From Pseudonocardia hydrocarbonoxydans (lineage in GTDB: Bacteria > Actinomycetota > Actinomycetes > Mycobacteriales > Pseudonocardiaceae): a stretch of DNA of 64,000 nucleotides. Both the position numbers and the translations under genes were made by a program. The notes beneath the pieces were generated by a model that had not been told where the DNA came from, did no database searches, and worked only from the letters and a program-made list of their open reading frames with translations. The stretch covers positions 62,001 through 126,000 of the forward strand of contig NZ_BJNG01000037.1 of assembly GCF_006539565.1 (NCBI RefSeq), written 5' to 3'. This document shows positions 35,474-48,681 of this stretch, piece by piece; the first letter of the stretch is position 1; each line of letters opens with the position of its first letter.

Positions 35474-35501
35474 TCAGGCGAAGTCCTCGGGCGAGACCTC
35501 G
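35474..35501 (-). pseudogene. Severed 3' end of the DUF151 nuclease gene (left junction)
   Basis: On the minus strand this stretch reads as codons for EVSPEDFA followed by TGA (stop at 35474-35476). That is the expected C-terminus of the DUF151 gene now found 12.7 kb away at 48166-48681, whose sequence matches up to ...DEVSP before diverging. The fragment is the part of the target gene cut off when the element integrated. Confidence 0.85.
35490..35501. other. attL core (left attachment repeat)
   Basis: GGCGAGACCTCG at 35490-35501 is repeated exactly at 48209-48220. The left flank (TCAGGCGAAGTCCTC) is host coding sequence, and the right flank (CCAAGCTCTTAGG) is element DNA. The integrase gene lies 0.4 kb inside this end, as expected. 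Confidence 0.85.
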
Positions 35502-35554
35502 CCAAGCTCTTAGGTATGCAAGCCACAACGGCTTGCCGACCGAGGGAGCAGTCA

Positions 35555-35917
35555 GTGAAGGTCATCGTTCGTAAGCCCCGGCTGACCAGCCGGCACTCTG
35601 AGATCCTGCGGTTCGTCGGGGTGGCCCTGGCCGCCGCTCTGACGGTCGTCGGACTCGGGTTCGTCGGTTCGTACGCCGGTGCGTCCGCAGCGTGCGTCGC
35701 GGCGGTTGGAGCGGTCGGGCTCGGTCGTCCGCTCCGAGAGATCAGGGACGACCGAGCCTCCGAGGTTCGGACCGGTGACGACCTCTGGTCGCCCGGTCGC
35801 GGGTTCCTCCCGGTCGTGGACACACTCCAGGACGATCGATACGTGGAGATCACCACCGACGACGCCGAGGCGTATGGCGCTGACGAGCTGGTGACGGTTC
35901 GTAGGGTCTCGGAGTGA
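35555..35917 (+). CDS. Small membrane protein upstream of integrase (120 aa)
   Basis: The product carries two adjacent hydrophobic stretches (FVGVALAAALTVVGLGFVGSYAGASAACVAAVGAVGLG, residues 20-55) followed by an acidic, soluble tail. GAGGGAG lies about 7 bases before the GTG start; an upstream in-frame ATG at 35516 would cross into attachment-site DNA. The GTG of the integrase gene overlaps its stop, so it is co-translated with the recombinase. No family recognised. Confidence 0.65.
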   Translation: MKVIVRKPRLTSRHSEILRFVGVALAAALTVVGLGFVGSYAGASAACVAAVGAVGLGRPLREIRDDRASEVRTGDDLWSPGRGFLPVVDTLQDDRYVEITTDDAEAYGADELVTVRRVSE

Positions 35918-37494
35918 CCCGCGCTCTGATCCTGATCCGTGTCAGCCGGACGACCGACACCGGATCCTCGCCGTCGACTCAGCGGGAAGACTGCGAGCGG
36001 TACTGCGAGATCCACGGTCTAGAGGTCGTCGGGATCGCTGAGGATCTGGACACCAGCGGGTCTACCAACCCGCTAGAGCGGACCGGGGCCGGACCGTGGC
36101 TACACGAGGACCGGCTACCCGAGTGGGACGTGATCGTCGCTTGGAAGCTCCACCGCGTCGGTCGTTCGGCGCGGCACATCTCAGCGCTGATGAACTACCT
36201 GATCGACCACGGCAAGTCGTTGGTGTGCGTGAACGACCCGATCGATCTGTCTACCCCGATCGGCAAGATGATCGTGTACATCCTCGCCACGATCGCCGAG
36301 ATGGACCTAGCGAACATCTCGGCGGGCAACGCTAGGGCGTCCGAGGAAGCGCGTAAGGAAGGCCGGTTCAAGGGCGGTACGTGGCCCGCCGGGTACCTCG
36401 CCCGCAGGGTCGAGGACGGGTATCGGTTGTTCCCGGACGAGGACGGTCTAGCGCCGGTGATGCGGTCGATCGTCCGGAGAGTGCTCGCGGGCGATCGGTT
36501 CACGTCGATCATCGCGGACCTGAACGAACGCGGTGTGCCGACCCCGACCGACAGGCAGAAGATCCTGTCGGGCCGGGAACCGGTGGGTACTCGGTGGTCA
36601 ATGGCGCCGTTCACGGCGATGCTGACGAGTCCGACGCTCGTCGGGTTCGCGGTGCACCGAGGTAGCGGGAGGCACGGCGGCCCGCCGTCGATCGTGTACG
36701 ACACGGACGACCTCCCGATCCAGCGTGCCGAACCGCTGATCAGCGAGGCTGACTTCCGATCGCTACAGCACACGATCTCCGAGCGGAAAAGAGGATCGAC
36801 CGGAACCAAGCGTTCGGAGACGAACGCGCTGCTGGTCCGGGTCATCTTCTGCGGCGTGTGCAAGCGGCCGATGTACCGGTTCAAGCAACCCACAGCGATC
36901 CGGTACCGGTGCCCTTCTCCGAACAAGGGCGACGCCTGCGGCAACGGATCGGTGATCGCAGCCGAGTTCGATGCGCTCGTGGCTCGGACGATGCTGTTGT
37001 TCAGCGAGTTCGAGTACATGGAGCAGAGGTACCGCCCCGGGTCCAACGCGGGGGCGGAGATGGCAGAACTGTCGGCGAAGATCGAACGGGTCACCGAAGC
37101 GTTGTTGACCGTGATGCCGGGCGTCCCGTCCGCTGCGAGTCTGGCCGACCGGCTCAACGAACTAGAGGCGCGGCGCGCTGAACTCGCGGCGCTGCCCCGA
37201 GAGGAAGCGGGGTACGAACTAGTGCCCACCGGTCGGACGTTCGGCGAGGAATGGGAGAACCTGACCGACGCCGGTCGCAACGATCTGCTCCGCAGGTTCG
37301 AGGTGCGGCTAGAGGTCTGGAAAGACCCGAAGTCGAGGACCGCAGGAACCGTCCGATTGGAGCTGGGGCAGACGGTCGAGTTCCTGCGGTCGATCGATCC
37401 TCGGTTCGGTCGAGACGATTTCGTAGCGATGGCCGAAACTCTCGGCTCGCGTATCCCAGACGGCGCCTCTATCGAGGTCGTCCACCCGGAGTAG
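35914..37494 (+). CDS. int: Large serine recombinase / phage integrase (526 aa)
   Basis: The N-terminal resolvase domain (residues 4-150) has the nucleophile Ser11 in LILIRVSRTT and the conserved WKLHRVGRSARH. The recombinase domain (about 160-265) contains GTWPAGY and WSMAPFTAMLTSPTLVGFAVHRG. A zinc ribbon has Cys313, Cys316, Cys333 and Cys342. A coiled-coil motif (about 375-425) and a C-terminal tail complete the phiC31/Bxb1-type architecture. It should catalyse attP x attB integration without host factors; excision normally needs a directionality factor, perhaps one of the small HTH proteins here. The attachment repeat lies 0.4 kb upstream. Confidence 0.95.
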   Translation: MTRALILIRVSRTTDTGSSPSTQREDCERYCEIHGLEVVGIAEDLDTSGSTNPLERTGAGPWLHEDRLPEWDVIVAWKLHRVGRSARHISALMNYLIDHGKSLVCVNDPIDLSTPIGKMIVYILATIAEMDLANISAGNARASEEARKEGRFKGGTWPAGYLARRVEDGYRLFPDEDGLAPVMRSIVRRVLAGDRFTSIIADLNERGVPTPTDRQKILSGREPVGTRWSMAPFTAMLTSPTLVGFAVHRGSGRHGGPPSIVYDTDDLPIQRAEPLISEADFRSLQHTISERKRGSTGTKRSETNALLVRVIFCGVCKRPMYRFKQPTAIRYRCPSPNKGDACGNGSVIAAEFDALVARTMLLFSEFEYMEQRYRPGSNAGAEMAELSAKIERVTEALLTVMPGVPSAASLADRLNELEARRAELAALPREEAGYELVPTGRTFGEEWENLTDAGRNDLLRRFEVRLEVWKDPKSRTAGTVRLELGQTVEFLRSIDPRFGRDDFVAMAETLGSRIPDGASIEVVHPE

Positions 37495-37508
37495 CTACGG
37501 CTCGTCGT

Positions 37509-37537
37509 GCCCCGGTCCGTGCTCAGCGGACCGGGGC
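37509..37537. terminator. Strong hairpin between convergent integrase and HTH genes
   Basis: GCCCCGGTCCG (37509-37519) pairs perfectly with 37527-37537 around a 7-nt loop (TGCTCAG). It can serve as a bidirectional terminator for the integrase gene and the leftward gene ending at 37548. Confidence 0.7.
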
Positions 37538-37547
37538 TCTCGCGTGT

Positions 37548-38123
37548 CTACGGCTGGTTTCGGCGATGTTCGGCGACGGCGTTCCGCCATGTGTCATCGG
37601 ACTGATCTGGCAGTGCGGCACGTCGCGCCTTCTCGGTGAGAGCGCCCCCCTTCCGGCCGTGCGAGCGCTCGAACAGCTCGCGTCGCTGCGCCTGCCATAG
37701 GTGGTGCTTGACGGTCGCGGGTGTCTTCCCGACCGCCCGCGCTAGGGCGTCGTGTGGCCGGTCGTGCTCAGCGTTGACAAGGACCAGGTACGCCGCAGCG
37801 AGCATCGCTAGGTACCGGTCGGTCAGCCCGTCCGAGGCTGCCTTGCGGAGCAGCCGCGTAGTCGGGTCTGAGTCCGTCCCGAACCTCTCCGCAGCGCTCA
37901 GCGTGCCGCGCCCGCGTAGTTGCCTGTAGGCGTCGGGGAACGAGACGTCCCGCAGGACCGTGGAGCTGAGCCCGTTGGGGGGTGGATCGGCTGGGTCGGT
38001 GGGTCTGATTTCCAGCGTGACGGGGCCACGGCCAGGCACCGGCACGTCCGTGTCCCACCGCATGACGGCGGTCCACCCGCCCGGTAGCTCTTGCTCGACG
38101 GTTGCGCCGTCTGGCGTAGTCAT
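37548..38123 (-). CDS. HTH-containing mobile-element protein, probable regulator (191 aa)
   Basis: The N-terminal half is a beta-rich segment (WTAVMRWDTDVPVPGRGPVTLEIRPTD). The C-terminal half is helical with an HTH-like stretch (DALARAVGKTPATVKHHLWQAQRRELF, around residues 135-160). It resembles the DUF6214-type proteins seen in actinobacterial mobile elements, but I cannot assign it firmly. It is one of only two leftward genes in the element. Its promoter faces an inverted-repeat region at 38154-38187 from which the rightward genes start, a typical place for an immunity-type repressor. Confidence 0.65.
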   Translation of the reverse strand: MTTPDGATVEQELPGGWTAVMRWDTDVPVPGRGPVTLEIRPTDPADPPPNGLSSTVLRDVSFPDAYRQLRGRGTLSAAERFGTDSDPTTRLLRKAASDGLTDRYLAMLAAAYLVLVNAEHDRPHDALARAVGKTPATVKHHLWQAQRRELFERSHGRKGGALTEKARRAALPDQSDDTWRNAVAEHRRNQP

Positions 38124-38153
38124 GCCCCCAGACTACCCGACCGACCAGCGTGT

Positions 38154-38187
38154 TTGACAACAGGTTGCGCCCTCTGCCAACCTGTTG
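38154..38187. promoter_or_regulatory. TTGACA box within an inverted CAACAGGTTG repeat
   Basis: TTGACA (38154-38159) overlaps CAACAGGTTG (38158-38167), which is inverted as CAACCTGTTG at 38178-38187 with a 10-bp spacer. The site lies between the leftward HTH gene and the rightward module. It is a likely operator-promoter of the element's genetic switch; I could not find a convincing -10 box. Confidence 0.5.
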
Positions 38188-38333
38188 CCGTACTGGTTGG
38201 GCCGCTGCCTCGGCCAGGACACCAGGAACGGACCGCACGGCGGGCCGGTGGAGACAACTCAATGTGGGCACTGAGCCCTGGGTCCCGGCTAATACGGGGC
38301 CGTTCATCCATCATCGAGAAAGGCAATCCGCAA

Positions 38334-38660
38334 GTGAAGAAGCACGCTCCCCGCAAGCGTTCGTTGCTCGTCGACTCCCCGATGTGGCTGACAGCCGGCC
38401 TCACGGACATGCCTCACGGATTCCGTGCGTTGCTCGTGTACGTCTCGGTCCGAGTACAAGAACACGACCGGATCTATCGGCCGGTCGCGGATCTGTTGTC
38501 CAGTGGGTGCCACCGGCTCGATTCGGTGGACACGGTCGAAGACCACACGATGATGGGCTACGAAGCGAATGAGCTGATCTACTCGATCTGGCCGGAATGC
38601 CCCGGCCCGCTCGTACCTCACGGGTGCGTTTCAGATCGCGTACGGGTTCAGACCCGATAA
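38334..38660 (+). CDS. Hypothetical element protein (108 aa)
   Basis: The protein starts with a basic stretch (VKKHAPRKRSLL) and continues as a mixed alpha/beta sequence with an acidic middle (DSVDTVEDHTMMGYEANELIYSIWPE). GAGAAAGG lies about 10 bases before the GTG start at 38334. No family is recognised. It is the first rightward gene after the operator region and is followed by a small hairpin and the 64-aa gene. Confidence 0.6.
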   Translation: MKKHAPRKRSLLVDSPMWLTAGLTDMPHGFRALLVYVSVRVQEHDRIYRPVADLLSSGCHRLDSVDTVEDHTMMGYEANELIYSIWPECPGPLVPHGCVSDRVRVQTR

Positions 38661-38668
38661 GACCCCCG

Positions 38669-38688
38669 CGGGTCGCAGAAGCGACCCG
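38669..38688 (+). terminator. Short hairpin between small element genes
   Basis: CGGGTCGC (38669-38676) pairs with 38681-38688 around an AGAA loop. No U-tract follows, so attenuation or mRNA processing is as likely as termination. Confidence 0.4.
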
Positions 38689-38706
38689 ACAGAGAAAGAG
38701 AATCAG

Positions 38707-38901
38707 ATGGAAATCGAGAAAGAAGACCGGGTGCCGTTGTGGCACCTTGCCCGGAACACCGGGATGCCGAAACGTGAGCTGCTGCCGCTGCTCGCCGAGA
38801 TCGGGATGACCGTCGAGGCAGACCTGACCACCGGCGACGTCTATGCGTCGCGCTCCGAGTTCGGTGACCTGCTTCGGTCGGTCGCCGAGGGGGCCGTGTG
38901 A
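38707..38901 (+). CDS. Small acidic HTH-like protein (64 aa)
   Basis: The sequence VPLWHLARNTGMPKRELLPLLAEIGMTVEADLTTGDVYASRSEFGDLL resembles a small winged or MerR-like DNA-binding fold, a class that includes excisionases. GAGAAAGAGA precedes the ATG. The stop overlaps the GTG of the next gene, so the two are co-translated. A role as recombination directionality factor or as partner of the winged-helix protein is possible but unproven. Confidence 0.6.
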   Translation: MEIEKEDRVPLWHLARNTGMPKRELLPLLAEIGMTVEADLTTGDVYASRSEFGDLLRSVAEGAV

Positions 38902-39473
38902 GCACGGCACTACTCACGCCCTACATCGAGGAAGCACACCAACGGCTCGGTGAGAGGGCTACACCGGACGTGCTCGCCGTAGCCGAGGCGTTGGAGCGGT
39001 ACGCGGCCGCTGACGGGCGACTCCCCGACGGGCGGGCCGTGGTCGAGGAGACCGGGCTCCCTTCCGAGGAGTTCAAGGCCGCGCTCTCCGTGCTCGGCGC
39101 GGCAGGGCTGTTCGTGGCCCGTGGAGAGAGCCGGGACGGCACGGCTCGGATAGTCGTCCCTGGCGTCCGGGTGCTCCGCTCCCCGGATCGGGAGGTGGAC
39201 TACCGCTGCTCGGTGATGGATCACCCCGGGCTCTCGGTGGGCGCCCGGTACACCGGCGTAGCGATCGTGCGGCACTGCTTCCGCAAGTTGGAGCTGTTCG
39301 CTGGCATGGACACGGTGGCTGAGTGGATCGGGCTCAGCCCTGAGTCCCGCAAGCAGGCGGGGAAGTACGTCGAGGAGCTTGCCAAGGCCGGGTTCCTGGA
39401 CCCGATCGGCAAGGCGGGCCGGTCCATCAAGTATCGGCTGACGATCCCGGAACGGGTGGATCCACCCCACTAG
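38898..39473 (+). CDS. Winged-helix DNA-binding protein, candidate replication initiator (191 aa)
   Basis: Two HTH-like halves can be seen: DVLAVAEALERYAAADGRLPDGRAVVEETGLPSEEFKAALSVLGAAGLF (residues 24-75) and ELFAGMDTVAEWIGLSPESRKQAGKYVEELAKAGFLDPIGKAGRSIKYRLTIP (130-185). This tandem winged-helix layout is found in Rep initiators of plasmids and phage elements and in some regulators. The gene's 3' end itself contains the first of a set of 19-bp iteron-like repeats that continue downstream, the usual geometry of an initiator and its origin. The GTG start overlaps the stop of the 64-aa gene. Confidence 0.65.
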   Translation: MSTALLTPYIEEAHQRLGERATPDVLAVAEALERYAAADGRLPDGRAVVEETGLPSEEFKAALSVLGAAGLFVARGESRDGTARIVVPGVRVLRSPDREVDYRCSVMDHPGLSVGARYTGVAIVRHCFRKLELFAGMDTVAEWIGLSPESRKQAGKYVEELAKAGFLDPIGKAGRSIKYRLTIPERVDPPH

Positions 39474-39696
39474 GGGGATCCTCGCTAACGGGTCGATCCG
39501 CCCTGTCCCTAGTGGGGCGGATCCGCCCTATGAGTGGGTCAATCCACCCCACTATGTAATAGAGCTAAGTAATAGCTGAGGTAGATAGAGGGAGCCCCGG
39601 AAGGGCTCCCTTCGAGGCCGGCCCTTGGGGGCCGTCCTGACCACTCTCACCTCACCGGGATAAACCGAGAGTCCTACGGGTCAATCCACCCCACTA
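39454..39696. repeat. Iteron-like 19-bp repeats, candidate replication origin
   Basis: The repeat GGGTCAATCCACCCCACTA occurs exactly at 39536-39554 and 39678-39696. A variant, GGGTGGATCCACCCCACTA, lies at 39454-39472, and a diverged copy starts at 39490 (GGGTCGATCCGCCC). An inverted copy at 39510-39524 reads GGATCCGCCCCACTA on the other strand. Between the third and fourth copies lies an AT-rich stretch (TATGTAATAGAGCTAAGTAATAG begins at 39553) that could be a DNA-unwinding element. There is no gene in 39474-39724 besides these repeats and a terminator. Confidence 0.7.
39589..39611 (+). terminator. Terminator hairpin after the replication-like module
   Basis: AGGGAGCCC (39589-39597) pairs perfectly with GGGCTCCCT (39603-39611) around loop CGGAA. 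It lies between the iteron copies, upstream of the zinc-ribbon gene. Confidence 0.75.
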
Positions 39697-39724
39697 GGGG
39701 TGCGGACCCTATCGAAAGGAAACC

Positions 39725-40384
39725 ATGACCACCGCATCCGCCCGAACGATCGTCTGCGTCGTCTGCGATCAGGCGTTCACCTACCCCTACACCGGCGGCC
39801 GTGACCGCCGGACGTGCGATCAGCCCGAGTGCAAGACCGCACGGAAGACGACAAACAAGCGCTCGGAGCGCGACCGACAAAGACCGAGGAACGGGCCGGA
39901 CGGATCGGAGTACGTGCCGGCCGACTACCCGCACAACATCCCGGGACGCCCGGGACTCGATGACGGCGAGTGGGCCGATGTCATCGAGCGGAACCGCTGG
40001 TACCGGGAGCGACACAGGCTCCGGGCACAACCCGAGGGGGTGACCGTAGATCAGCGCTCGATCCCGCTCAGCGGCGCCGACGGCTCGGTCCGTGAGCTGC
40101 TGAGCAGCGGCCACGGCTATGTCATGGACGACCACCGGGACCGTGACGAGGATCCGCTACGGCTGATCCCAACACAGTACCGAGGCGCGGTGAAGCACTG
40201 GTTCAAGCTGCACGGTGAACCGCTCGCCGGGCTTGCCGGGAGCCGGCCCCGGCCGGGCGATCCGGTCATGCACATAGTGGGCCGGCCGGACACCGGCCCC
40301 AGCTCGCCACCTCTGAGGATCACACGGCGGTTCTGCGCTCGGAACGCGCTCGTTCCGCTCGAAAGGTTCTCGCTCACGCTCTAA
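39725..40384 (+). CDS. Zinc-ribbon element protein of unknown function (219 aa)
   Basis: An N-terminal treble-clef-like zinc ribbon has Cys11, Cys14, Cys31 and Cys36 (CVVCDQAFTY...CDQPEC). The rest is highly charged with no known motif. GAAAGGA lies directly before the ATG, a strong ribosome-binding site. The gene is alone between two terminators (39589 and 40455), and a 19-bp iteron copy overlaps its promoter region, so the repeat-binding protein could control it. Confidence 0.65.
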   Translation: MTTASARTIVCVVCDQAFTYPYTGGRDRRTCDQPECKTARKTTNKRSERDRQRPRNGPDGSEYVPADYPHNIPGRPGLDDGEWADVIERNRWYRERHRLRAQPEGVTVDQRSIPLSGADGSVRELLSSGHGYVMDDHRDRDEDPLRLIPTQYRGAVKHWFKLHGEPLAGLAGSRPRPGDPVMHIVGRPDTGPSSPPLRITRRFCARNALVPLERFSLTL

Positions 40385-40454
40385 GTGTCGCTTTTTCCCT
40401 TATCTTTGAAGGGAGAGCGGCGCCCGCCTCTCACCGCTAACCCCTTCCTGACGC

Positions 40455-40486
40455 AGCCCCGTACCCCTTGGCGGAGGTACGGGGCT
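40455..40486 (+). terminator. Terminator upstream of the tape measure gene
   Basis: AGCCCCGTACC (40455-40465) pairs perfectly over 11 bp with GGTACGGGGCT (40476-40486), loop of 10 nt. It isolates the tape measure gene from upstream transcription. The 193 bp from 40385 to 40577 otherwise holds no gene. Confidence 0.75.
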
Positions 40487-40524
40487 GTTGCCGTTCCTGG
40501 ACCCTGCCAGGGTGATAGTTCCTT

Positions 40525-40560: not shown

Positions 40561-40577
40561 AGCAAGGAAAATCCCGA

Positions 40578-43088
40578 ATGGCAGAAACGCAGACCATCGG
40601 TCGCGTGGGAGTCAAGGTCACTCCCGAACTCCGAACATTCGCCCGCGATGCCCGAGCGGGCATCACATCCGCACTCCGGAACCTCCGCGTAGAGGTCCCG
40701 ATCTTGCCCGACACCGACCGGCTACGGCAGGGACTCGAAACCGCCGTCCGGCAGGCATCGGCCGGAGTCGTCGCTCAGGTCCGTGTCCAGTGGGTGCCCG
40801 CCGCTGCAGTGCTCCGGGCTGAGCTACAGCGGCTCGCCGACGCCGCTGCTCGTGGTGTCCGGGCCGACATCGAAGTCAGCGCAGACGCTTCCGGCCTGCG
40901 AAACGCGATGCGGGCGCTCACCGGGTCGTCTGGCGGTGGTGGTCCGGGCCGGGTGCTCGCCGGCCTGTCTCGCTCGTTCTCGGTCCTGACACGGTCCGTG
41001 GCGGGTCTCGCCGCCGCCGGTAGTGCCGTCCAGGTGATCGGCGGTCTCTCGGCCGCTCTCGCCCAACTAGCGCCTATCGCGCTCGCTCTCCCGGGTCTGC
41101 TGCTCGGTGTAGGCGCCGCGTTCGCTGCGGTGAAGATCGGGCTCTCCGGTGTCGGTGAGGCGATCAAGACCGGGGACCTCTCCGGGCTCGCCGGTCCGGC
41201 CGCCGAGTCGGTCACCGCGCTCCGATCCCTGAAGCCCGCGCTCGACGACCTGAAGTCGTCTGTCCAGGGCGCGCTGTTCGAGGGTCTGGCCGGGCCACTC
41301 CGGGAGGCCGGCACGACTCTGCTGCCGATCCTGAAGACCGGGCTTACAGGGATCTCTACCGAGTTCAACGGGATCGCCAAGTCTGCTCTGGCCGCTACTC
41401 AGTCTCCGTTCTTCCAGGACGACCTGACACAAATCCTGGGCAACACCGCCGGGATGCTCGGCAACATGCGAGATTCCCTAGGGAATCTCCTCTCCGGTTT
41501 CGTCGGTCTCGGTGGCGTCGGATCCACCTACCTTCCCGCGCTCGGTAACGCGATCGACAACGTCGCGTCGAAGTTCAAGGCGTGGGTCGACCAGGGTGTC
41601 GAAGACGGCTCGATCAAGGCGATGATCGATGGCGCGATCCAGGGCTTTAACGACCTGGGCGCGGTGCTCGGCAATATCGGTAGCTCGATCGGCTCCGTGT
41701 TCTCCGGTCTCCAGGCCGGAATGGGCGGCGCCGGCCTGCTCTCGAACCTCGTAGCGCTTACCGATCAGGTCGCCCGGTTCATGGAGACCGCAGCGGCACA
41801 GGATGCGCTCCGCTCGCTCGGTGAACTCATGGCTACGGCTGGAACGGCTGTCCGGGAGATCCTGGGTGCTGCGCTCCAGGCGCTCGCACCGATCGTGTCG
41901 GCTCTCGCTCCGCTGATCTCCGCGTTCGCTACCGCGCTGTCTAGCGCGCTGGTCCCGATCCTGGAATCGGTCGGTCCTCCGATCGCCCGGCTCGTCGAGG
42001 CGTTCGCTAACGGGCTCGCTCCGATCCTGCCTTTGCTCGCTAGTGCGTTCGCTCAGCTAGGCCCGATCGTCGGGACGCTGATCGACGCTCTCGTTCCGGT
42101 CGTATCGATGCTCGCAGAGACGATGCTCCCGGTCTTCGAGATGCTGCTCCCGCTCGTCGTGGACATCGCGGACGCTCTCGGCTCGGCTCTCGCCACGGCG
42201 ATTCAATCCGTGGCACCGTTCATTCCGCCGCTCGTCCAGGCCGTGAGCGACGTCCTGGCGGCCGTGCTGCCGCTGATCCCGAAGATCCTGGAACTCGCTC
42301 AGATCGTGTTCCCGCTGCTCGTCGGGATCATCGGATCGGTAGTGGTTCCCGCGATCCAACTGATCGCCGGGATCATCACGAACGTCCTTGTTCCGGTCGT
42401 CTCCGGGGTTATCGACGTGATCCTGTTCCTCGCACGGATCTTCACGATGTCGTGGTCCGACATCGACGCGGTGGTCCGCGACGGCGTAGCGATCGTGTCC
42501 GGTCTGCTCGGACAGATGATCGATTTCGTCGGCACGATCCCCTCACGGGTCGTGTCGGTGCTCGGCAACCTTGGGTCGCTGCTCGTGAACTCTGGTCGGG
42601 CGATGATCGACGGGTTCGTCACCGGTATCCGCAACGCGATCGGTTCCGCGATCAGCGCGGTATCCGGGTTCATCGGACGGATCCGCAACCTGTTCCCGTT
42701 CTCTCCCGCTAAGGACGGCCCGCTATCGGGCCGAGGGTACGTCACCCACTCCGGTAAGGCGCTAACCCGAGACTTCGCTAAGTCGCTCCGCAAGGGAGCG
42801 GCAGTAGTCCAGCGCGCCGCGGCCGGCGTCGTCTCCGGTGTCGAATCCGAGTTCGCGGGCGTGCCGCTCGCTATCGGCGCTATCGACGCTGCGGTCGACC
42901 GCATGAAGCGGGTTGACATGAACTCCGATATCCGAGCGTCGGTCACCTCCGACGATTTCGGTATCGACTACGACCGACTCGCCGACTCGGTGGTTAACGG
43001 TCTGACCGGATCGACTCTCAACGTTGAGGGCAACGGCATGGCCAAGATCGTCAACAAGTCGAACACCCGCAAGGCTCGACGCAGGTAA
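40578..43088 (+). CDS. Phage tail tape measure protein (836 aa)
   Basis: The protein has the tape-measure pattern. A positively charged, helical N-terminus (IGRVGVKVTPELRTFARDARAGITSALRNLRVEV) is followed by a very long series of hydrophobic alpha-helical segments (residues 130-200 and 430-680, for example LAPIVSALAPLISAFATALSSALVPILESVG), and then a C-terminal region with GRIRNLFPFSPAKDGPLSGRGYVTHSGKALTRDFAKSLRKG. Near-repeats rich in Leu, Ile, Ala and Pro recur. At about 1.5 angstrom per residue the family rule predicts a tail of about 125 nm. AAGGAA precedes the ATG. It forms its own transcription unit between terminators. In ordinary siphophages it follows the tail-tube gene, which is absent here. 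Confidence 0.92.
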   Translation: MAETQTIGRVGVKVTPELRTFARDARAGITSALRNLRVEVPILPDTDRLRQGLETAVRQASAGVVAQVRVQWVPAAAVLRAELQRLADAAARGVRADIEVSADASGLRNAMRALTGSSGGGGPGRVLAGLSRSFSVLTRSVAGLAAAGSAVQVIGGLSAALAQLAPIALALPGLLLGVGAAFAAVKIGLSGVGEAIKTGDLSGLAGPAAESVTALRSLKPALDDLKSSVQGALFEGLAGPLREAGTTLLPILKTGLTGISTEFNGIAKSALAATQSPFFQDDLTQILGNTAGMLGNMRDSLGNLLSGFVGLGGVGSTYLPALGNAIDNVASKFKAWVDQGVEDGSIKAMIDGAIQGFNDLGAVLGNIGSSIGSVFSGLQAGMGGAGLLSNLVALTDQVARFMETAAAQDALRSLGELMATAGTAVREILGAALQALAPIVSALAPLISAFATALSSALVPILESVGPPIARLVEAFANGLAPILPLLASAFAQLGPIVGTLIDALVPVVSMLAETMLPVFEMLLPLVVDIADALGSALATAIQSVAPFIPPLVQAVSDVLAAVLPLIPKILELAQIVFPLLVGIIGSVVVPAIQLIAGIITNVLVPVVSGVIDVILFLARIFTMSWSDIDAVVRDGVAIVSGLLGQMIDFVGTIPSRVVSVLGNLGSLLVNSGRAMIDGFVTGIRNAIGSAISAVSGFIGRIRNLFPFSPAKDGPLSGRGYVTHSGKALTRDFAKSLRKGAAVVQRAAAGVVSGVESEFAGVPLAIGAIDAAVDRMKRVDMNSDIRASVTSDDFGIDYDRLADSVVNGLTGSTLNVEGNGMAKIVNKSNTRKARRR

Positions 43089-43157: not shown

Positions 43158-43358
43158 GTGTATCACGGTCCAGGCAGCACGGAGAAGATCAGTGCTGCGA
43201 TCCGATCGTCCGGCATGACTCAGCGCGAGATCGCTCGCGCGGTCGGTCTCTCGGAAGGCTCGATCAGCCACTACGTCAACGGGTGGCGACTGCCATCGGC
43301 CGGCAACCTCTACCGGCTCGCCGGTGTGCTCGGTGTCGACGTCCGGTCGCTCACGTGA
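43158..43358 (+). CDS. Cro/C1-type HTH regulator (66 aa)
   Basis: An XRE-type HTH fills the protein: TEKISAAIRSSGMTQREIARAVGLSEGSISHYVNGWRLPSAGNLYRLAGVLGVDVRSL. GACAGGAG lies before the GTG. It is the first gene of the rightward structural operon, so it may regulate late genes. Its stop overlaps the next GTG. Confidence 0.85.
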   Translation: MYHGPGSTEKISAAIRSSGMTQREIARAVGLSEGSISHYVNGWRLPSAGNLYRLAGVLGVDVRSLT

Positions 43359-43567
43359 GCGCATTCCCCTATCCGCAGACCGAGACGGCAGAAGACGTCG
43401 AGGCGCTGATGAACCACGCGGCGCAGATCGCCGCCGATCGAGGCCGGCTCGGCTCCGATGGTGCCGCTTATGCGTTCGCGCTCGCATCGCTCGCCGTGAA
43501 CTCCGTGTTCGCCGGTTCGTTTCCCGATAGCCCGCCGACCCACCGACAAGGGCTGTACGCCGTATGA
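43355..43567 (+). CDS. Hypothetical element protein (70 aa)
   Basis: A short, Ala-rich, probably helical protein (TAEDVEALMNHAAQIAADRGRLGSDGAAYAFALASLAVNSVF). Starts at GTG 43355 overlapping the HTH stop and ends overlapping the next ATG, which supports it as a real co-translated gene. No family recognised. Confidence 0.6.
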   Translation: MSAFPYPQTETAEDVEALMNHAAQIAADRGRLGSDGAAYAFALASLAVNSVFAGSFPDSPPTHRQGLYAV

Positions 43568-43740
43568 CCGAGTCGCTAACCGAAACGCTCGCTCGCATCA
43601 AGCGGGAGAGCGATGGTCGATGCCTGAGCCAACGAGTAGCCGAGGACGGCTACCGAGTACTCGCCGATCCGTTCGGCGATAAGACAACCGCCGCCGTAGA
43701 GCGGCGGACCGATACCGAGACAAGGGAGCAGAATGACTGA
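43564..43740 (+). CDS. Very small element protein (58 aa)
   Basis: An unbroken 59-codon frame runs from ATG 43564 (overlapping the previous stop as ATGA) to TGA 43738-43740 (overlapping the next start). The product is highly charged and hydrophilic, starting MTESLTETLARIKRESDG. The overlaps on both sides are the main evidence for it. Confidence 0.55.
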   Translation: MTESLTETLARIKRESDGRCLSQRVAEDGYRVLADPFGDKTTAAVERRTDTETREQND

Positions 43741-44740
43741 CTGGAAGAACGATTTCATGGCCCGGATGCCCGCCGGGTTCGGTGATATCGCCCCCGGCGC
43801 GGGCGCGCCGACCGAGTACGACTACGCGGGCAACGTGGTCGGGTTTGCCCGCACCGAGGACGAGCTGTACGCGAATCGTGCCCAGCAGGCGCTCGCGATC
43901 CGGGAGGCCGGTGGAGCGGCCGGGGTTCTCGATCCCGCCCGGCTCGACAAGGACGACCGGAGCAAGGCGCTCCCGGTGCTCGCGCGGTACGGCGTGAAGA
44001 CCCCCGAGAGGATCACCCACGCGATGACCGTCGCCGGGCAGGTAGAGCTTGCCCTGACGCCGGATAACCCCCACCTGGACGTGCGGACCGTTCCGGTGGA
44101 CCAGATCCAGGACCGGGTCCGGGAGCACATCGCCCAGAAGCAGCGCGAGGCGTACCTGAACACCGAGTCGGCGGTACTGCGTCAGCAGGCAGCGCACGGC
44201 GTGGTGAGCGCGTTCCGTGCGTCGTTCTCTGACGTGCTCGCCGAGAAGGAGATCCGCGACGAGTTCGACCAGGCGCGCGACGAGTTCCTGGCGGCTCTCC
44301 CGATCGTCGGCGGGTGCCGGTCGATCGCCGATGCCGGTCTGCTCGACGAGACCGGCGAGGGTGTGGCCGCGTGGTGGCGCGCGGTGAAGTCCGCTCAGCG
44401 CATGGACAAGATCGTCGAGCTGCTGGTCTGGTTCGCCGCACCCGCGAAGGTGCAGGCGCTCGGGTCGCTGCGCCGCTCGATGGAGTCCGGCGAGATCCTG
44501 GCCCTGTCCGCTGAGCCGGTGGACACCCTGACCTATATGGGAGCGCTCGCAGCGCGCGGGATCGACCATCACGAGCACCTGCGCCGGCCGGCCGACGCCG
44601 CACCGTTCGCGCTGTACGCCGCTCAGGTCGAGGCCGGATGCACGCTCGGTCTCCCCACGAGCGCCGAGGAGTTCGAGGCTCGTTCGCTCTCGTTCAACCC
44701 CTACGCCGTGATCGCCGACGCGATGAGCGCCGATGTCTGA
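43733..44740 (+). CDS. Uncharacterised element protein in structural operon (335 aa)
   Basis: A mostly helical soluble protein with no recognised domain. Regions include an acidic N-terminus (DWKNDFMARMPAGFGDIAPG), a long helix with many charged residues (IQDRVREHIAQKQREAYLNTESAVLRQQAAHGVVSAF) and a C-terminal block. AAGGGAG precedes the ATG. It sits just before the MuF-like gene, where typical phages have portal or scaffold genes. At 335 residues it is short for a portal and lacks portal features. A scaffold- or capsid-remodelling role is possible. Confidence 0.7.
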   Translation: MTDWKNDFMARMPAGFGDIAPGAGAPTEYDYAGNVVGFARTEDELYANRAQQALAIREAGGAAGVLDPARLDKDDRSKALPVLARYGVKTPERITHAMTVAGQVELALTPDNPHLDVRTVPVDQIQDRVREHIAQKQREAYLNTESAVLRQQAAHGVVSAFRASFSDVLAEKEIRDEFDQARDEFLAALPIVGGCRSIADAGLLDETGEGVAAWWRAVKSAQRMDKIVELLVWFAAPAKVQALGSLRRSMESGEILALSAEPVDTLTYMGALAARGIDHHEHLRRPADAAPFALYAAQVEAGCTLGLPTSAEEFEARSLSFNPYAVIADAMSADV

Positions 44741-44990
44741 GCGCGGTGAATGTCAGCGGTACGGGTGCGGCCGGCGGTTCAGCGACCCCGGCCTACACAA
44801 GCACTGTTCTCGGATGTGCTCTGCCGTAGACGGTGCGTTCGACAACCTCCGAGGTTTGTACAAGCGGAGACCGGAGGACATCGATCAGTTCGATGAGCAG
44901 TGGGACGCGCTGTGCGCCGTCACCGCAGCGCTCACCGGGTTTTACGCGCTGGTCGACGCTCATCGGGCGGAGAGAGGCGAGACCCCGTGA
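44733..44990 (+). CDS. Small Cys-rich zinc-binding protein (85 aa)
   Basis: The N-terminal third has CQRYGC, then HKHC and MCS, placing Cys7, Cys12, His22, Cys25 and Cys29 for a zinc knuckle. The remainder is helical (EDIDQFDEQWDALCAVTAALTGFYALVDAHRAE). It overlaps both neighbours and directly precedes the MuF-like gene. Function unknown. Confidence 0.65.
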   Translation: MSERGECQRYGCGRRFSDPGLHKHCSRMCSAVDGAFDNLRGLYKRRPEDIDQFDEQWDALCAVTAALTGFYALVDAHRAERGETP

Positions 44991-45796
44991 TCCTCGCCGA
45001 GTACTTCGCTGGCACGCGGGCGATCCGTCGCCCGCTCGCCCGGGCGGTCATCGCGATCATGAATCCGCTCGCTCGGCTCGATCGGAAGCCCGCCGACAAC
45101 GCTGCCGCGCTCCGCTCGCTCTGGCCGGTGGTCGAGGCCGCTCACACCGAGTCCGGTGATCTCGCACGCCGGTTCTACGACGAGGAACGCGCGTCGCGCG
45201 GGATGGCCCGTCACGACACGTACCGCTCGGTCATCAAGCCCGAGTGGTTCGGGGAGGCGCTGACCCCGGTCCTGATCGAGACCTCCGAGCCGGCCCAAGA
45301 CGGCGCAGAGCAAGCACGACAGACAGAACTCGTCACCGCCGCCGCTATCGCGGTGGTGGACTCCGGCGGCCGACGGACGATGCTGCGAGCCACCGAGACG
45401 GATCGGGAACTCGCGGGGTGGGCTCGCGTCGAGGGAGGCGCGGAATCCTGCGCTTTCTGCACGATGCTGATCTCCCGGGGGCCGGTCTACTCGTCCGCCG
45501 ACTCGGCCGGCCTGGACTCGGACGACGAGTCCGCGAAGGAACTCGCCGAGGCGTACCAACGCACCGGCGACCGGTCCGAACTTGACTCGCTCATGAAGCG
45601 ATTCCACGTCCGGTGTGACTGTCAGGTGGTCCCGGTGTTCGACCGGGCGGACTGGCCCGGGATCGACCAGTACCGCGCGGCAGAGGCCGCGTGGATCAAA
45701 GCCAGCAAGGCAGCCAGAGAAGCGGGCACCGACCCGATGACCGCGCTCCGATACCAACTCGACGGCCGGGCCGTCCCCGCGAAGGAGAAGAAGTGA
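44987..45796 (+). CDS. MuF-like / VG15-type phage head morphogenesis protein (269 aa)
   Basis: The C-terminal region carries the conserved metal-site pattern of actinophage MuF-type minor capsid proteins: ESCAFCTMLISRGPVY (Cys155, Cys158) followed about 50 residues later by FHVRCDCQVVPVF (His207, Cys210, Cys212). The N-terminal part is helical. MuF proteins sit at the portal inside the capsid and are normally encoded directly after the portal gene, which is missing here. The GTG start overlaps the upstream stop, and the downstream GTG overlaps its own stop. Confidence 0.85.
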   Translation: MILAEYFAGTRAIRRPLARAVIAIMNPLARLDRKPADNAAALRSLWPVVEAAHTESGDLARRFYDEERASRGMARHDTYRSVIKPEWFGEALTPVLIETSEPAQDGAEQARQTELVTAAAIAVVDSGGRRTMLRATETDRELAGWARVEGGAESCAFCTMLISRGPVYSSADSAGLDSDDESAKELAEAYQRTGDRSELDSLMKRFHVRCDCQVVPVFDRADWPGIDQYRAAEAAWIKASKAAREAGTDPMTALRYQLDGRAVPAKEKK

Positions 45797-46137
45797 GTTT
45801 GCTCGACAGGGGCAACGCCGACGTTGTCCTGTTCCCCGAAGTCACGATCACCGATCCGGACGGGAACACGATCACCCGACCGGCAACGGCCGGAATCCCG
45901 GCTCGCGCCACCGTCCAGCCGCTCGGCTCGACGACCGACGACCAGGACGGGGCCGGGTTCGTCACCGGCCCGACCCGATACCGGCTCAGGCTCACCAGGA
46001 GCTACGCCGGCCCGGTGCTCGGCCGGCAATCCCGAGTGGAGTGGAACGGTGATCGATACGCGGTTCTCGGTGATCCGGTGCACTTCACCGGGTCCAGGAA
46101 GACCGCACACACTGACTACGTGATCGGCCGTGCCTGA
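45793..46137 (+). CDS. Putative head-tail connector / head closure protein (114 aa)
   Basis: A small, beta-rich protein: VVLFPEVTITDPDGNTITRPA, then RYRLRLTRSYAGPVLGRQSRVEWNGDRYAVLGDPVHF. This layout matches head-closure (stopper) proteins of siphophages, which are small beta-barrels encoded between head and tail genes. Its position right after the MuF-like gene supports the call, but similarity is by pattern only. Confidence 0.6.
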   Translation: MSLLDRGNADVVLFPEVTITDPDGNTITRPATAGIPARATVQPLGSTTDDQDGAGFVTGPTRYRLRLTRSYAGPVLGRQSRVEWNGDRYAVLGDPVHFTGSRKTAHTDYVIGRA

Positions 46138-46454
46138 TGTCCGTGACGATCAGGCTCTACGGAGACAAGACGATCAACCGGATCGTCTCACGTCTCCCTG
46201 CCGTCAGGGACGCGGTGAAGGACCACGCGGACCAGATCGGCCGCCGGGCCGAGGCTCGGTTAGCGGCTCATCGAGATGCCGGCGCCACCCGCGTCGGTGT
46301 CGACCATTCCGGGCAGATCGACTCCGTGGTCTACCTGGACGACGAGCGCGGCGCTAAGGCCGCGCTCTCTATCGAGTTCGGGCACACCGACCCGAGGACC
46401 GGCCGCCACGTCGAGGGGCTGTATGTCCTCTACGGTGCTGCCGGCTTGCTCTAG
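46137..46454 (+). CDS. Putative neck/tail-completion protein (105 aa)
   Basis: The N-terminus VTIRLYGDKTINRIVSRLPAVRDAVKDHADQIGRRAEARLAAHRD followed by DSVVYLDDERGAKAALSIEFGHTDP is similar in layout to HK97-gp10-like and related neck proteins, with a helix first and then strands ending in the EFGH motif region. It is encoded after the head-closure candidate as in phages. ATG overlaps the upstream TGA by one base. Confidence 0.65.
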   Translation: MSVTIRLYGDKTINRIVSRLPAVRDAVKDHADQIGRRAEARLAAHRDAGATRVGVDHSGQIDSVVYLDDERGAKAALSIEFGHTDPRTGRHVEGLYVLYGAAGLL

Positions 46455-46756
46455 TGCCGTGGGACCCGGCGGCCCGGAAAGGCCGCTCTGGGCTACCTCC
46501 GGACTGGGCTCGGCTCCGTCTCCGAGTGCTTGCCCGCGACGAGCACCGGTGCCAGATCAAGGGACCGTCGTGCGTCGGGTTCGCTACCGACGTCGACCAC
46601 CGAGACGACCGTGACGACCACTCGCTAGGGAATCTCCGCTCGGCCTGCCGGCCGTGCCACAACCAGCACACGAGCGCTCAGGGAGTCGCCGCGAAGGCGC
46701 GGCTCCGAGCAGCCCGACGCCGGCCCGAAGGCCGTCACCCCGGACGGCTCGACTGA
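46454..46756 (+). CDS. HNH endonuclease (100 aa)
   Basis: The small phage-type HNH domain is complete: Cys33 and Cys40, then DVDHRDD with catalytic His49, Asn60 in SLGNLR, and CRPCHNQHT with Cys65, Cys68 and His69. In many phages such nucleases assist terminase at cos sites and lie close to it. Here it is the last gene of the structural operon, followed by a strong terminator and 250 bp of non-coding DNA. The GTG start overlaps the preceding TAG by one base. Confidence 0.9.
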   Translation: MPWDPAARKGRSGLPPDWARLRLRVLARDEHRCQIKGPSCVGFATDVDHRDDRDDHSLGNLRSACRPCHNQHTSAQGVAAKARLRAARRRPEGRHPGRLD

Positions 46757-46772
46757 TCCCGCGTAGACCGCT

Positions 46773-46797
46773 GAGAGCGCCCCTAACGGGCGCTCTC
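46773..46797 (+). terminator. Terminator of the structural operon
   Basis: GAGAGCGCCC (46773-46782) pairs perfectly over 10 bp with GGGCGCTCTC (46788-46797) around CTAAC, directly after the HNH gene. Confidence 0.82.
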
Positions 46798-47048
46798 GGC
46801 ACTCCCGACCCATCACACCGGGAAGATCCGAGAGACGAGATCAGCGCCTCTCCGACCTGCGGAAACGTGATCCGTACGGACGTCGGTGCTCACGAAACGC
46901 ACGCGCGCCGAGACCCCAGGGGCCGTACCCCTCCCCCAGGCGTCCCCACCCGCTGCGTAATGCGGGTCCCCGGCTCTGTACGGGTTAGAAGGTCGATGGG
47001 GCCAACCAGCCATGATCGAGATGCACGGGTTTTGGGACGACCAAGAAC
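46798..47048. other. Non-coding stretch after HNH gene, possible packaging region
   Basis: No credible gene is present on either strand. The stretch contains small dyads, for example ACCCGC (46948-46953) with GCGGGT (46962-46967), and a C-rich block near 46914-46948. HNH genes often lie beside cos sites, so a packaging site is a possibility, but nothing in the sequence proves it. Confidence 0.3.
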
Positions 47049-47078
47049 GATGTTCCTCGCGACGCTGCGAGGAACATC
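47049..47078. terminator. Bidirectional hairpin at the 3' end of the leftward 59-aa gene
   Basis: GATGTTCCTCGC (47049-47060) pairs perfectly over 12 bp with GCGAGGAACATC (47067-47078), loop GACGCT. It lies 3 bp past the stop codon of the leftward gene. Confidence 0.8.
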
Positions 47079-47081
47079 CGC

Positions 47082-47261
47082 TCAGCCGTTCACGCGCTCG
47101 ACGCGCTCAACCGTTTTCTCCGGAAGTCGGAGCACGAGGCCGTCCCCGTCGTAGAACGACATCCATCCGCCCGAGATATCCATGTCAGCCGCCTGGACAG
47201 TCTCCGTGTTCCCGTTGATGTGTCTTTGCGTGGGAACGGTCGTGATCTGGTACTTGTGCAT
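47082..47261 (-). CDS. Small leftward element protein (59 aa)
   Basis: Starts MHKYQITTVPTQRHINGNTE and contains the segment DISGGWMSFYDGDGLVLRLPEKTV, which suggests a small beta-rich fold. GAGAGGAA is well placed before the ATG at 47261, and a strong hairpin follows the stop, so this looks like a real monocistronic gene. It is transcribed against the structural operon, like lysogenically expressed accessory (moron) genes in prophages. Function unknown. Confidence 0.65.
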   Translation of the reverse strand: MHKYQITTVPTQRHINGNTETVQAADMDISGGWMSFYDGDGLVLRLPEKTVERVERVNG

Positions 47262-47401
47262 CGTGCTGTTCCTCTCGTGGGGAGCGAAGTGACTGGATGT
47301 CACTGCGACCACTCTAATGGATAACCCCGACAGATGTGGTTGCTTGGCATTGCTGCCGAACGTGAAGCAGTCCTGTCGGTGCCCCGTGGCACGATCCTCG
47401 C

Positions 47402-47596
47402 GTGGACCTCGAAGCGACCCCTCTGGACTCGATCGCTCAGCCCCGGCCGTGTGTCCGGTGCTCGAAGCCATGCCTCCTCTGGGTGGTCGGGCGATGCGCC
47501 GACTGCATGGCAGACATGTACTTCAACCACCCCGAGGACTACCGGGCGTTCAAGGACGACGTCCGCGAGGAGTTCGGTACCAAGGCCATCGCCTAG
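47402..47596 (+). CDS. Small zinc-ribbon protein near the right end (64 aa)
   Basis: Two Cys pairs, CVRC (Cys17, Cys20) and CADC (Cys32, Cys35), suggest a zinc ribbon; the C-terminus is acidic and helical. The GTG at 47402 has no clear ribosome-binding site. A hairpin follows at 47646-47665. No family recognised. Confidence 0.55.
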   Translation: MDLEATPLDSIAQPRPCVRCSKPCLLWVVGRCADCMADMYFNHPEDYRAFKDDVREEFGTKAIA

Positions 47597-47645
47597 CGCC
47601 GATCGACACACCCGCCTATAAGGGGGGTAGATTGAGACGGCACGC

Positions 47646-47665
47646 CCCGGGGTTGCAGCCCCGGG
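47646..47665 (+). terminator. GC-rich hairpin after the small zinc-ribbon gene
   Basis: CCCGGGG (47646-47652) pairs with CCCCGGG (47659-47665), loop TTGCAG. No U-tract follows. Confidence 0.5.
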
Positions 47666-47927
47666 ACGAGCCACGACCTCTCCTAGTGGTCGCTGAAGTA
47701 GAAGCACACCTGAATGAGCAGCCACAGGTAGCGCAGTGGCGTGAGAAGGCGGCTAGCCCAACCGGGCCGGTCGCCTTCTCGCTTGTCCGTCGACCGATCC
47801 GGGTCGACAGGGTCGGGTCTGTTCAACGCACCTCCGGGCTAGCTGCGACCGCGGAACCGAATCGGTATCCGCTGCATCTGAGACTAACGAGGAGTCCCGA
47901 CAGATCGGCGGCTAGGACCCGCCCAGG

Positions 47928-48115
47928 TTGTCCACAGAAGGCCGAACAGCCACCGGTTCTGGCGATCTCAGCCCAGCTAAGCGATGCCCATAGGACAGCC
48001 GGACTAGTCGAACTGATCCGAATGCCGCACGGAGACGGGGTCAAGGTCAGGTTGGGGTCGTCGCCGATGAGGACGTGTGGACGGACGCGCGGTAGTCATC
48101 CACAGATGTGGACAA
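47928..48115. other. DnaA-box-like cluster at the right end of the element
   Basis: TTGTCCACA, the preferred actinobacterial DnaA box, occurs at 47928-47936 and inverted at 48107-48115 (TGTGGACAA). Related boxes are TCATCCACA at 48096-48104 and inverted CCGTCCACA at 48076-48084. Three of the four lie within 40 bp. The gap 47597-48165 contains no credible gene, so an origin or replication-control role is plausible. Confidence 0.55.
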
Positions 48116-48165
48116 CGTTGCTCGGGAAGGCAGACCCCGGCTCGGACGGTCCGAGCCGGGCTGCA

Positions 48166-48681
48166 TCAGCCCGCCGGGTGACCCGGGTCACGCCAACCTT
48201 GACTATCCGGCGAGACCTCGTCGATGAACTTGCGGAAGTCCTCGAGCTGCTTCTCCGGCGCGGCCTCGGTGCCGTCGGGGAACAGGTCGGCGGTGGGCTG
48301 GCCGACCTCGTCGAGGATCGTCGACTCCACCCCGATCGGCAGCCCCTCGCGCACGGCGATGGCGAGCGCGTCGCTCGGCCGCAGCTCGACCCGCGCGCCG
48401 TCGGCGAACACCAGGTCGGCCTGGAACTTGCCGTCGACCAGCGCCACGATCTCGGCCCCGGCGATCCGGTGCCCGAGCCCCTCCAGCAACGGCACGACGA
48501 CGTCCTGCGGCAGTTGCGGATCATCCTCCCCGCGCGCGCCGAGCGCGATCGCGTCGGCCTGGGGACGGCGCAGGAAGACGGGGAGGCAGCGCTCACCGTC
48601 GACCTCACCCAGCAGCAGCACCGGCTCGCGGGTCCGCACGTGGACCACCAGCCGCAGGACCCGCATCGTCGTCATCGACAT
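48166..48681 (-). CDS. DUF151 bifunctional nuclease-family protein, C-terminus replaced by element DNA (171 aa)
   Basis: The DUF151 domain is complete: REPVLLLGEVDGERCLPVFLRRPQADAIALG, then VVPLLEGLGHRIAGAEIVALVDGKFQADLVFADGARVELRPSDALAIAVREGLPIGVE. Plant and bacterial relatives have RNase/DNase activity. The last residues after DEVSP (DSQGWRDPGHPAG) are encoded by the integrated element; the native end EDFA is left at 35474. The catalytic domain lies upstream of the junction, so the protein probably still works. Start taken as ATG 48681; an ATG two codons later is equally good. Confidence 0.88.
   Translation of the reverse strand: MSMTTMRVLRLVVHVRTREPVLLLGEVDGERCLPVFLRRPQADAIALGARGEDDPQLPQDVVVPLLEGLGHRIAGAEIVALVDGKFQADLVFADGARVELRPSDALAIAVREGLPIGVESTILDEVGQPTADLFPDGTEAAPEKQLEDFRKFIDEVSPDSQGWRDPGHPAG
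48209..48220. other. attR core (right attachment repeat)
   Basis: GGCGAGACCTCG repeats the attL core exactly. The right flank (TCGATGAACTTGCGG) is host DUF151 coding sequence, and the left flank (CTTGACTATCC) is element DNA. Joining the outer flanks restores an uninterrupted DUF151 gene. Confidence 0.85.

Follow-up and report, generated by a model that had tools for sequence, protein, structure and literature searches.

The window analysed here is a stretch of 64,000 nucleotides of Pseudonocardia hydrocarbonoxydans (contig NZ_BJNG01000037.1, positions 62,001 to 126,000), in which a 12.7-kb island of low GC content at 35490-48220 is treated as a candidate phage satellite element. The GC fraction of the island in 250-base steps was 0.58-0.74, compared to approximately 0.80-0.83 in the left flank and 0.71-0.76 in the right flank; since the element lies in the interior of a single 129,770-base contig, it is not an assembly-edge artefact. 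An initial annotation, made from the sequence alone, had reported 12-bp direct repeats at both ends, and these are present (GGCGAGACCTCG; Table 1). Eight repeats of at least 12 bases, this pair among them, were found between the two flank regions scanned, and the length of the repeat on its own is without significance; its position is decisive, because the core sits within the 3′ end of a PF02577 bifunctional-nuclease gene. The original last codons of this gene, as read from the sequence, are stranded to the left of the element. A joined-flank query (121 nt) aligned across the junction in the genomes G343, G345, G332, G325 and G370 (94, 88, 95, 88 and 93%, respectively), matched more weakly in many others of the 62 genus genomes and gave two split matches in the genome of P. 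hydrocarbonoxydans itself. The ends and the uninterrupted site in at least five relatives show integration at the nuclease gene. In terms of the general features of satellites, this is an integrated element with an integrase and precise ends.

The element carries a virion cassette, in which the tape measure protein (TMP), the MuF-like protein, the two small connector-like proteins (Hc1 and Ne1) and the HNH nuclease named in the initial annotation were all recognised by families, and the serine integrase described there as intact likewise matched its families and contained no stops. The statement that all genes are intact and tightly packed holds as far as stops are concerned and for the dense arrangement up to 46756, but not for the last ~1.45 kb, which is sparse. 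Among the matches listed, the closest phage MuF was 40.8% identical over 77% of the query (1045 records matched, all <60%), and the closest phage TMP was 29.7% identical over 63% (2017 records matched, all <60%).

Table 1. Features of the element and its integration site (window coordinates; L071 and L118 are related elements described in the text; ORF, open reading frame; HTH, helix-turn-helix; att, attachment site; ori, replication origin)
Feature	Position	Strand	Evidence
Left att core GGCGAGACCTCG	35490..35501	.	direct repeat; empty sites in relatives
Small protein ahead of integrase, hydrophobic stretch (by eye)	35555..35917	+	simple gene caller; no NCBIfam match
Serine (large) integrase, 526 aa	35914..37494	+	PF00239/PF07508/PF13408; phrog_95 2.5e-100; phmmer 1.3e-112 against L118 integrase
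HTH DNA-binding protein, repressor candidate, opposite strand	37548..38123	-	phrog_11473 3.5e-38
GP70-like small protein	38334..38660	+	PF17429 5.5e-11, phrog_4421 1.1e-9, both on longer ORF
64-aa protein, common to L071 and L118	38707..38901	+	L071 41%; L118 3.9e-6
191-aa protein, initiator or regulator candidate	38898..39473	+	PF22168 0.0016 (below cut-off), phrog_2030 0.0048; precedes iterons
Five palindrome-like iterons GGGYSRATCCRCCC, ori candidate	39454..39691	.	starts 39454, 39490, 39515, 39536, 39678
p219, Cys-rich N-terminus (by eye), common to island L118	39725..40384	+	1.9e-54 against L118
TMP, 836 aa	40578..43088	+	phrog_305 5e-103; profile c6 2e-90
Cro/CI-type HTH protein, 66 aa	43158..43358	+	PF01381 5.6e-12
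~70-aa protein resembling 69-aa protein ahead of MuF in L071 (by eye)	43355..43567	+	ORF 43283-43567, start inferred
58-aa protein directly ahead of p335, in the slot that holds the scaffold piece in L118	43564..43740	+	
p335, all-helical, four places in three genus genomes	43733..44740	+	searches and AlphaFold model
85-aa Cys-rich protein (by eye)	44733..44990	+	
MuF/VG15 minor head protein	44987..45796	+	PF25310 6.9e-29; phrog_193 7.7e-54; longest ORF from 44900
Head-closure protein Hc1	45793..46137	+	phrog_320 1.1e-28; profile c9 1.5e-33; longest ORF from 45691
Neck/tail-completion protein Ne1 (DUF5403)	46137..46454	+	PF17395 3.5e-20; phrog_321 6.1e-22
HNH endonuclease, 100 aa, kind found in prophage packaging modules	46454..46756	+	phrog_333 3.7e-32
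64-aa Cys-rich protein (by eye), sparse right end	47402..47596	+	
Right att core GGCGAGACCTCG	48209..48220	.	direct repeat; empty sites in relatives
Host bifunctional-nuclease gene; 3′ end = integration site; C-terminus now element codons	48166..48681	-	PF02577 3.3e-21

MuF matches were found in 41 of 390 family genomes, and 19 of the other 40 contributed the 20 regions whose surroundings were read; in a class search, 15 of 394 genomes gave MuF matches, the 14 others, which were weaker, being left out. These counts and those below are lower bounds, as the best 7997-8000 candidates were scored in the protein-database searches and 5 candidates per genome in the family search for p335. Of the 20 regions, 14 Pseudonocardiaceae prophages yielded 16 profiles (13 loci contributing to TerL, 13 to portal and 12 to capsid), one was a sister element (L071), and L073, L075 and L076, which showed no Hc1, Ne1 or TMP, were used in the MuF tree and for comparing HNHs; L077 and L078, MuF fragments sitting among host-like genes, were dropped. 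The profiles, none of them for HNH, were labelled from gene order and size, with which PHROGs agree for MuF, TMP, Hc1, Ne1 and scaffold; gene calls in the fetched regions came from a simple caller, and the choice of yardstick prophages by similarity to the window MuF introduces a bias. The window HNH was 40-56% identical to the HNHs of 18 of the 20 loci.

When the element was searched in six frames with the 16 profiles at E ≤ 1, only MuF (3e-74), TMP (2e-90), Hc1 (1.5e-33) and Ne1 (7.7e-34) matched, and no match was obtained for TerL, portal and capsid (profiles c2, c3 and c8), adaptor, tail tube, the tail-tip profiles or the chaperone profiles c5 and c15, which other kinds of chaperone would escape. 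Twenty window ORFs (some of them probably not genes, and 35555-35917 not included) matched no TerL, portal, capsid, tail-tube or lysis family in PHROGs, and Pfam scans of the element were also silent on TerL, portal and capsid, in line with the genes listed as missing in the initial annotation. The sole packaging name was phrog_4581 ‘terminase small subunit’ (1.3e-6), which fell on residues 17-81 of the HNH protein, including the HNH motif; no TerS was found in the element by PHROGs or profile, and no search for a cos site was made. The 58-aa protein ahead of p335 was considered as a scaffold piece and rejected, as profile c7 gave E 0.13 and hence no scaffold similarity. The set of virion and packaging genes is incomplete, as is general for satellites.

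The same gene set was looked for in other strains and was found in a second species, on a contig of a metagenome-assembled genome of Pseudonocardia sp. 73-21 (NZ_MKVV01000075.1; L071/L112). Gene order was MuF-Hc1-Ne1-TMP in 14 of 14 related prophages (the other genes were undetected in the three further MuF loci), whereas it was TMP-MuF-Hc1-Ne1 in both the window element and L071/L112. Identities between L071 and the window were 53% for TMP (49% by tblastn), 62% for Ne1, 57% for Hc1 and 38% for MuF. The two grouped together in the trees of MuF (97/92, with 17 prophage rows) and TMP (95/94, with 18 phage rows and a further locus, L105), and with moderate support in those of Ne1 (89/84) and Hc1 (85/84, 14 prophage rows each); the MuF, Hc1 and Ne1 trees were built on the best-matching piece per protein (189 aa for the L071 MuF). 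Between the two elements no stops were seen, and third codon positions changed most in all four genes (TMP: 0.37/0.29/0.57). Gene order, tree grouping, intact frames and third-position excess suggest that the cassette is old, has been kept under selection and was inherited or exchanged as a unit. L071 further carries a TerS (phrog_1496, 4.1e-17) and an 88-aa C-terminal piece of the scaffold (phrog_233 6.5e-7, positions 84-136 of 161), and gave no TerL, portal or capsid profile match (TerL at E ≤ 1). Its TMP is 857 aa long, and the median of 13 prophage TMPs, some of which are possibly cut short, was 897 (range 543-1020); both element TMPs are slightly under this median, so that the tail would be expected to be no more than a little shorter. 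A conserved gene set, as opposed to a random remnant, is thus seen in two elements with the same cassette and order. Direct repeats revealed nothing convincing as ends of L112 or of the island L118.

A TerS was detected by PHROGs in four relatives, namely L071, an island in the same genome as the window (C40), L118 (in G325) and L105 (in G329), and those of C40, L118 and L071 share 41-43% identity with that of prophage L064. The C40 island, which ends at a contig end, holds a C-terminal integrase piece, GP70-like and p335-like (37%) proteins, a TerS (5.6e-20) and a 274-aa protein that over 135 aa shares 56% identity with a 245-aa protein of L071; no virion-module profile, TerL among them, matched it at E ≤ 1. 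Its scaffold-like p67 (67 aa), which is weak by profile and resembles the L118 piece by eye, escaped detection at E ≤ 1 under default filter settings and gave 1.4e-4 with filters off and a five-sequence set. L118 shares with the window its integrase (1.3e-112), p219-like (1.9e-54) and p335-like (1.6e-21) proteins, and holds a TerS (7.6e-17), a transposase by eye and a scaffold C-terminal piece (phrog_233 1e-5, positions 80-158 of 161), after which p335 follows. L105, at a contig start, has a TMP of 1200 aa (simple caller), a TerS (1e-12) and a p335-like protein (1.3e-11). Neither the L118 nor the L105 region gave a TerL profile match at E ≤ 0.01. The part sets accordingly differ: HNH, TMP, MuF, Hc1 and Ne1 in the window; TerS, scaffold half, TMP, MuF, Hc1 and Ne1 in L071; TerS and TMP in L105 (incomplete); TerS and scaffold half in L118; TerS and perhaps a scaffold piece in C40. 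MuF, scaffold, Hc1, Ne1 and, except in L105, TMP match one prophage type, for instance L064.

Other genes lie on these islands as well. The C40 island encodes a Shedu protein (PF14082 4.8e-27) together with one resembling Mrr (PF04471 1.3e-4), at L005:9336-10571 and 13815-14810, possibly as defence cargo on a satellite-like island. L118 mixes satellite-like and integrative-element genes, with an FtsK/SpoIIIE-like protein (phrog_1358 2.7e-17) and, by eye, a RepSA-type initiator-like protein (phrog_11698) at L118:4377-6676, and a partial match to phage DNA polymerase/primase families (phrog_28894 5.4e-18) was found at L105:378-1331.

The protein p335, which adjoins the scaffold half in L118 and the weak scaffold-like piece in C40, was found in at least 3 of 62 genus genomes (four places) and in at least 3 of 390 family genomes, which are the same ones; searches in genomic and viral contig collections confirmed nothing. 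The L071 genome gave no match, so p335 marks part of the family. An AlphaFold model from five sequences was mostly helical (mean pLDDT 70, pTM 0.63) and had no fold match in PDB or BFVD at E ≤ 0.001. The p276 protein of L071, which follows the scaffold piece and looks alike by eye, is not claimed as a homologue: hhalign gave a probability of 20-25%, and its profile score of 4.9 bits was below that of the best shuffled version (12.2, 300 shuffles).

The replication-like module proposed in the initial annotation stands only in so far as the 191-aa protein, whose PF22168 match is a weak winged-helix one, is followed by five iterons; no known replicase family, primase included, was matched in the Pfam, PHROG and NCBIfam scans of the element. 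The iteron pattern, which was derived from these same repeats, had 11 matches, a number reached in 0 of 100 shuffles. Repeat clusters adjoin a possible initiator gene in the window, C40 (five repeats of 27 nt each), L112 and L118 (two copies only), the shuffle control applying to the window. Relatives of the GP70-like protein occur in L071, the C40 island (phrog_4421 2.2e-9) and L118 (via its match to the C40 protein), and p219 matched no Pfam or NCBIfam family and phrog_1271 only at 0.038.

Taken together, the element is on balance probably an integrated satellite of a Pseudonocardia family that would put its own MuF, Hc1, Ne1 and TMP into helper-based particles. The satellite status first raised in the initial annotation is supported by the sister with the same rearranged set; a family of satellites is indicated because the relatives have TerS without detected TerL and a truncated scaffold, and because further islands of the genus share a protein. 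Since the parts resemble one prophage type, the predicted helper is a siphophage with a VG15-MuF type virion module. Replication of such a phage would trigger the element, which would be excised by its own serine integrase, replicate from the iterons with its own initiator and be packaged by the helper terminase (TerL), aided by the element HNH; relatives would bring their own TerS. Work of Kala from 2014 is said to have described HNH proteins as packaging partners. With capsid, portal, tail tube and tail tip from the helper, and MuF, Hc1, Ne1 and TMP from the element, chimeric particles would arise whose tail length is set by the satellite and whose head-tail joint is of the satellite type.

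This particle step is proposed by analogy to PLE11. According to the consulted parts of PMC12987554 (Nature 2026), PLE satellites of Vibrio cholerae encode their own TMP, chimeric tails were demonstrated, the PLE11 TMP replaces that of the helper, its deletion cuts transduction by ~99.9%, and PLEs are called the first satellites known to remodel tails. TMP-bearing satellites are therefore already known since 2026, so that the initial remark that one would be unusual has been overtaken, and the window presents a variant with head-tail joint genes. We further propose, tentatively and as plausible rather than probable, that each element of the Pseudonocardia family carries a different selection of the virion module of one helper type (HNH or TerS, scaffold C-terminal half, MuF, Hc1, Ne1 and TMP), most of them with p335, and would rebuild the tail ruler and the joint of head and tail rather than the shell; a possible role for p335 is that of partner in a CpmB-like capsid-size switch.

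Several observations weigh against the satellite interpretation. No helper is known, and a search of the own genome found no second VG15 MuF; a prophage on C26 was set aside as helper, because its head type differs (by eye). Searching the own genome for PF03354 terminases gave no match, but the search also missed a terminase-like gene read by eye on C26, so that this negative says little. The window element lacks a TerS match and a recognisable scaffold piece. Profile c14 missed the TerS of both L071 and C40, which are detected by PHROGs, and therefore the silence of one profile is no proof of absence. By pairwise identity the window MuF is nearer to prophage L061 (47%) than to L071 (38%), and in the MuF tree, which groups the two elements but used only part of the L071 protein, the branch of the latter is flagged as long and unsure. 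The full cassette was seen in no more than two elements, the L105 TerS matches none of the prophages, and the L105 TMP falls elsewhere in the TMP tree.

The C26 prophage (L108, C26:33000-52999) is full-looking and of HK97 type, with HNH, capsid (PF05065) and tape measure genes by search and TerL-, portal- and protease-like genes by eye; it is not of the VG15-MuF type.

It is conceivable, if unlikely, that the element is a satellite whose MuF, Hc1, Ne1 and TMP mainly interfere with helper assembly and are dispensable for its own particles. A partial connector set could compete with that of the helper, and blocking of tail or virion assembly by bacterial and by prophage systems has been described (PMC11364771, PMC10884400, as far as consulted); however, a full-length TMP and three intact connectors would exceed the needs of a decoy, and PLE transduction requires the satellite TMP (PMC12987554). 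Rather improbable is a decayed prophage in which internal deletions have left a few late genes. All four virion proteins belong to one prophage type, and remnant prophages are common in Actinobacteria according to the parts of PMC10023795 consulted, but the gene order is unreachable by deletion alone, being no colinear subset of that in the 14 prophages, and is common to a second species whose versions group with those of the window. The frames are intact with third-position changes dominating, in agreement with the initial observation that the broken genes of a decaying prophage are missing, and related islands hold TerS and a scaffold half without detected TerL. The initial annotation had named full-length prophages as relatives, with the element as a recent internal deletion, as the contrary outcome; instead, the prophages differ in order and the sister has the same reduced set and order. 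A split system, in which another element in the cell is the dedicated partner giving capsid, portal and TerL, is highly improbable: a lone PF05065 capsid gene on C25 and the p335/TerS island on C40 lie in the own genome, but there is no second VG15-type MuF, and no virion-module profile matched the C40 island (E ≤ 1) or the C25 stretch (E ≤ 1e-3).

The C25 capsid gene is of HK97 type, with a gene read by eye as integrase-like at a distance of ~3 kb (L109:9869-11062 and 14166-15320); the gene list shows no other evident virion genes in this stretch, which is possibly another small element.

For a long time, the effects described for satellites were a redirection of capsid size and of DNA packaging. 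To our knowledge, phage-inducible chromosomal islands (PICIs) have no tail structural genes, a feature that the window TMP at 40578-43088 breaks. The following comparisons are limited to the parts of the cited papers that were consulted. PLEs share with the element a satellite-encoded TMP and the use of the helper capsid and most helper tail parts, which is proposed here; the partner of the TMP in PLEs, however, is a tail assembly chaperone, joined in PLE11 by a baseplate hub (PMC12987554), whereas the window TMP comes with MuF, Hc1 and Ne1, the head-tail joint, and the chaperone and tail-tip profiles are silent. The host phylum also differs, and the element is set beside PLEs by description, not by sequence.

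PICIs of the SaPI type resemble the element in the integrase, the opposite-strand regulator and a likely own origin (PMC6893505, PMC6092414), and its relatives in TerS and in a scaffold-like piece comparable in logic to CpmB. SaPI1 CpmA and CpmB always occur together, and the C-terminus of CpmB binds the capsid protein at the site of the scaffold (PMC6893505); the succession of scaffold half and p335 in L118 is parallel to this pair in layout only. In contrast to such PICIs, the window element has an HNH and no TerS match, it carries TMP, MuF and neck genes, which are unmentioned for PICIs in the consulted parts of PMC6893505 and PMC6092414, and its integrase is a serine one, where tyrosine integrases are typical of PICIs (PMC10690885). 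Capsid-forming PICIs (cf-PICIs) likewise have head-tail connectors and HNH (PMC10690885) and sometimes a putative tmp (PMC12987554), but they encode capsid, portal, TerL and TerS (PMC10690885), none of which was detected in the window element. The Streptomyces satellites MulchRoom and MiniFlayer are also actinobacterial and helper-dependent, but encode terminase, portal, capsid and scaffold without key replication genes, which is nearly the reverse of the window element (PMC10690885); ‘tape measure’ has 0 occurrences in the text of that paper, which reports that genes of Streptomyces satellites have matches in Pseudonocardia genomes. In the open-access literature, as far as consulted, neither a satellite with MuF and head-tail connectors but without capsid nor any Pseudonocardia satellite is described.

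If the interpretation as a satellite is true, an actinobacterial family with TMP and head-tail joint genes would imply that the neck-tail axis is remodelled by satellites in more than one way, and its members would be natural swaps for asking which interfaces decide the fit of head and tail between genomes. It would also fit the suggestion in the consulted parts of PMC10023795 that satellites make up some of the small prophage elements of actinobacteria.

TMP matches were found in 16 of 62 genus genomes, the surroundings in G155, G330, G332, G336 and G344 being left out. Four of the fetched TMP loci (L099, L100, L101 and L113) are ordinary phages by eye and L107 has portal and capsid profile matches, L102, L103, L104, L106 and L110 standing outside that sorting. 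On the short contig of L103 (L103:970-5394, G370:C82), a resolvase/integrase-like frame lies directly ahead of a tape-measure-like gene, and in the own genome a second tape-measure-like frame is located near a contig end (L006:18723-20000, C57).

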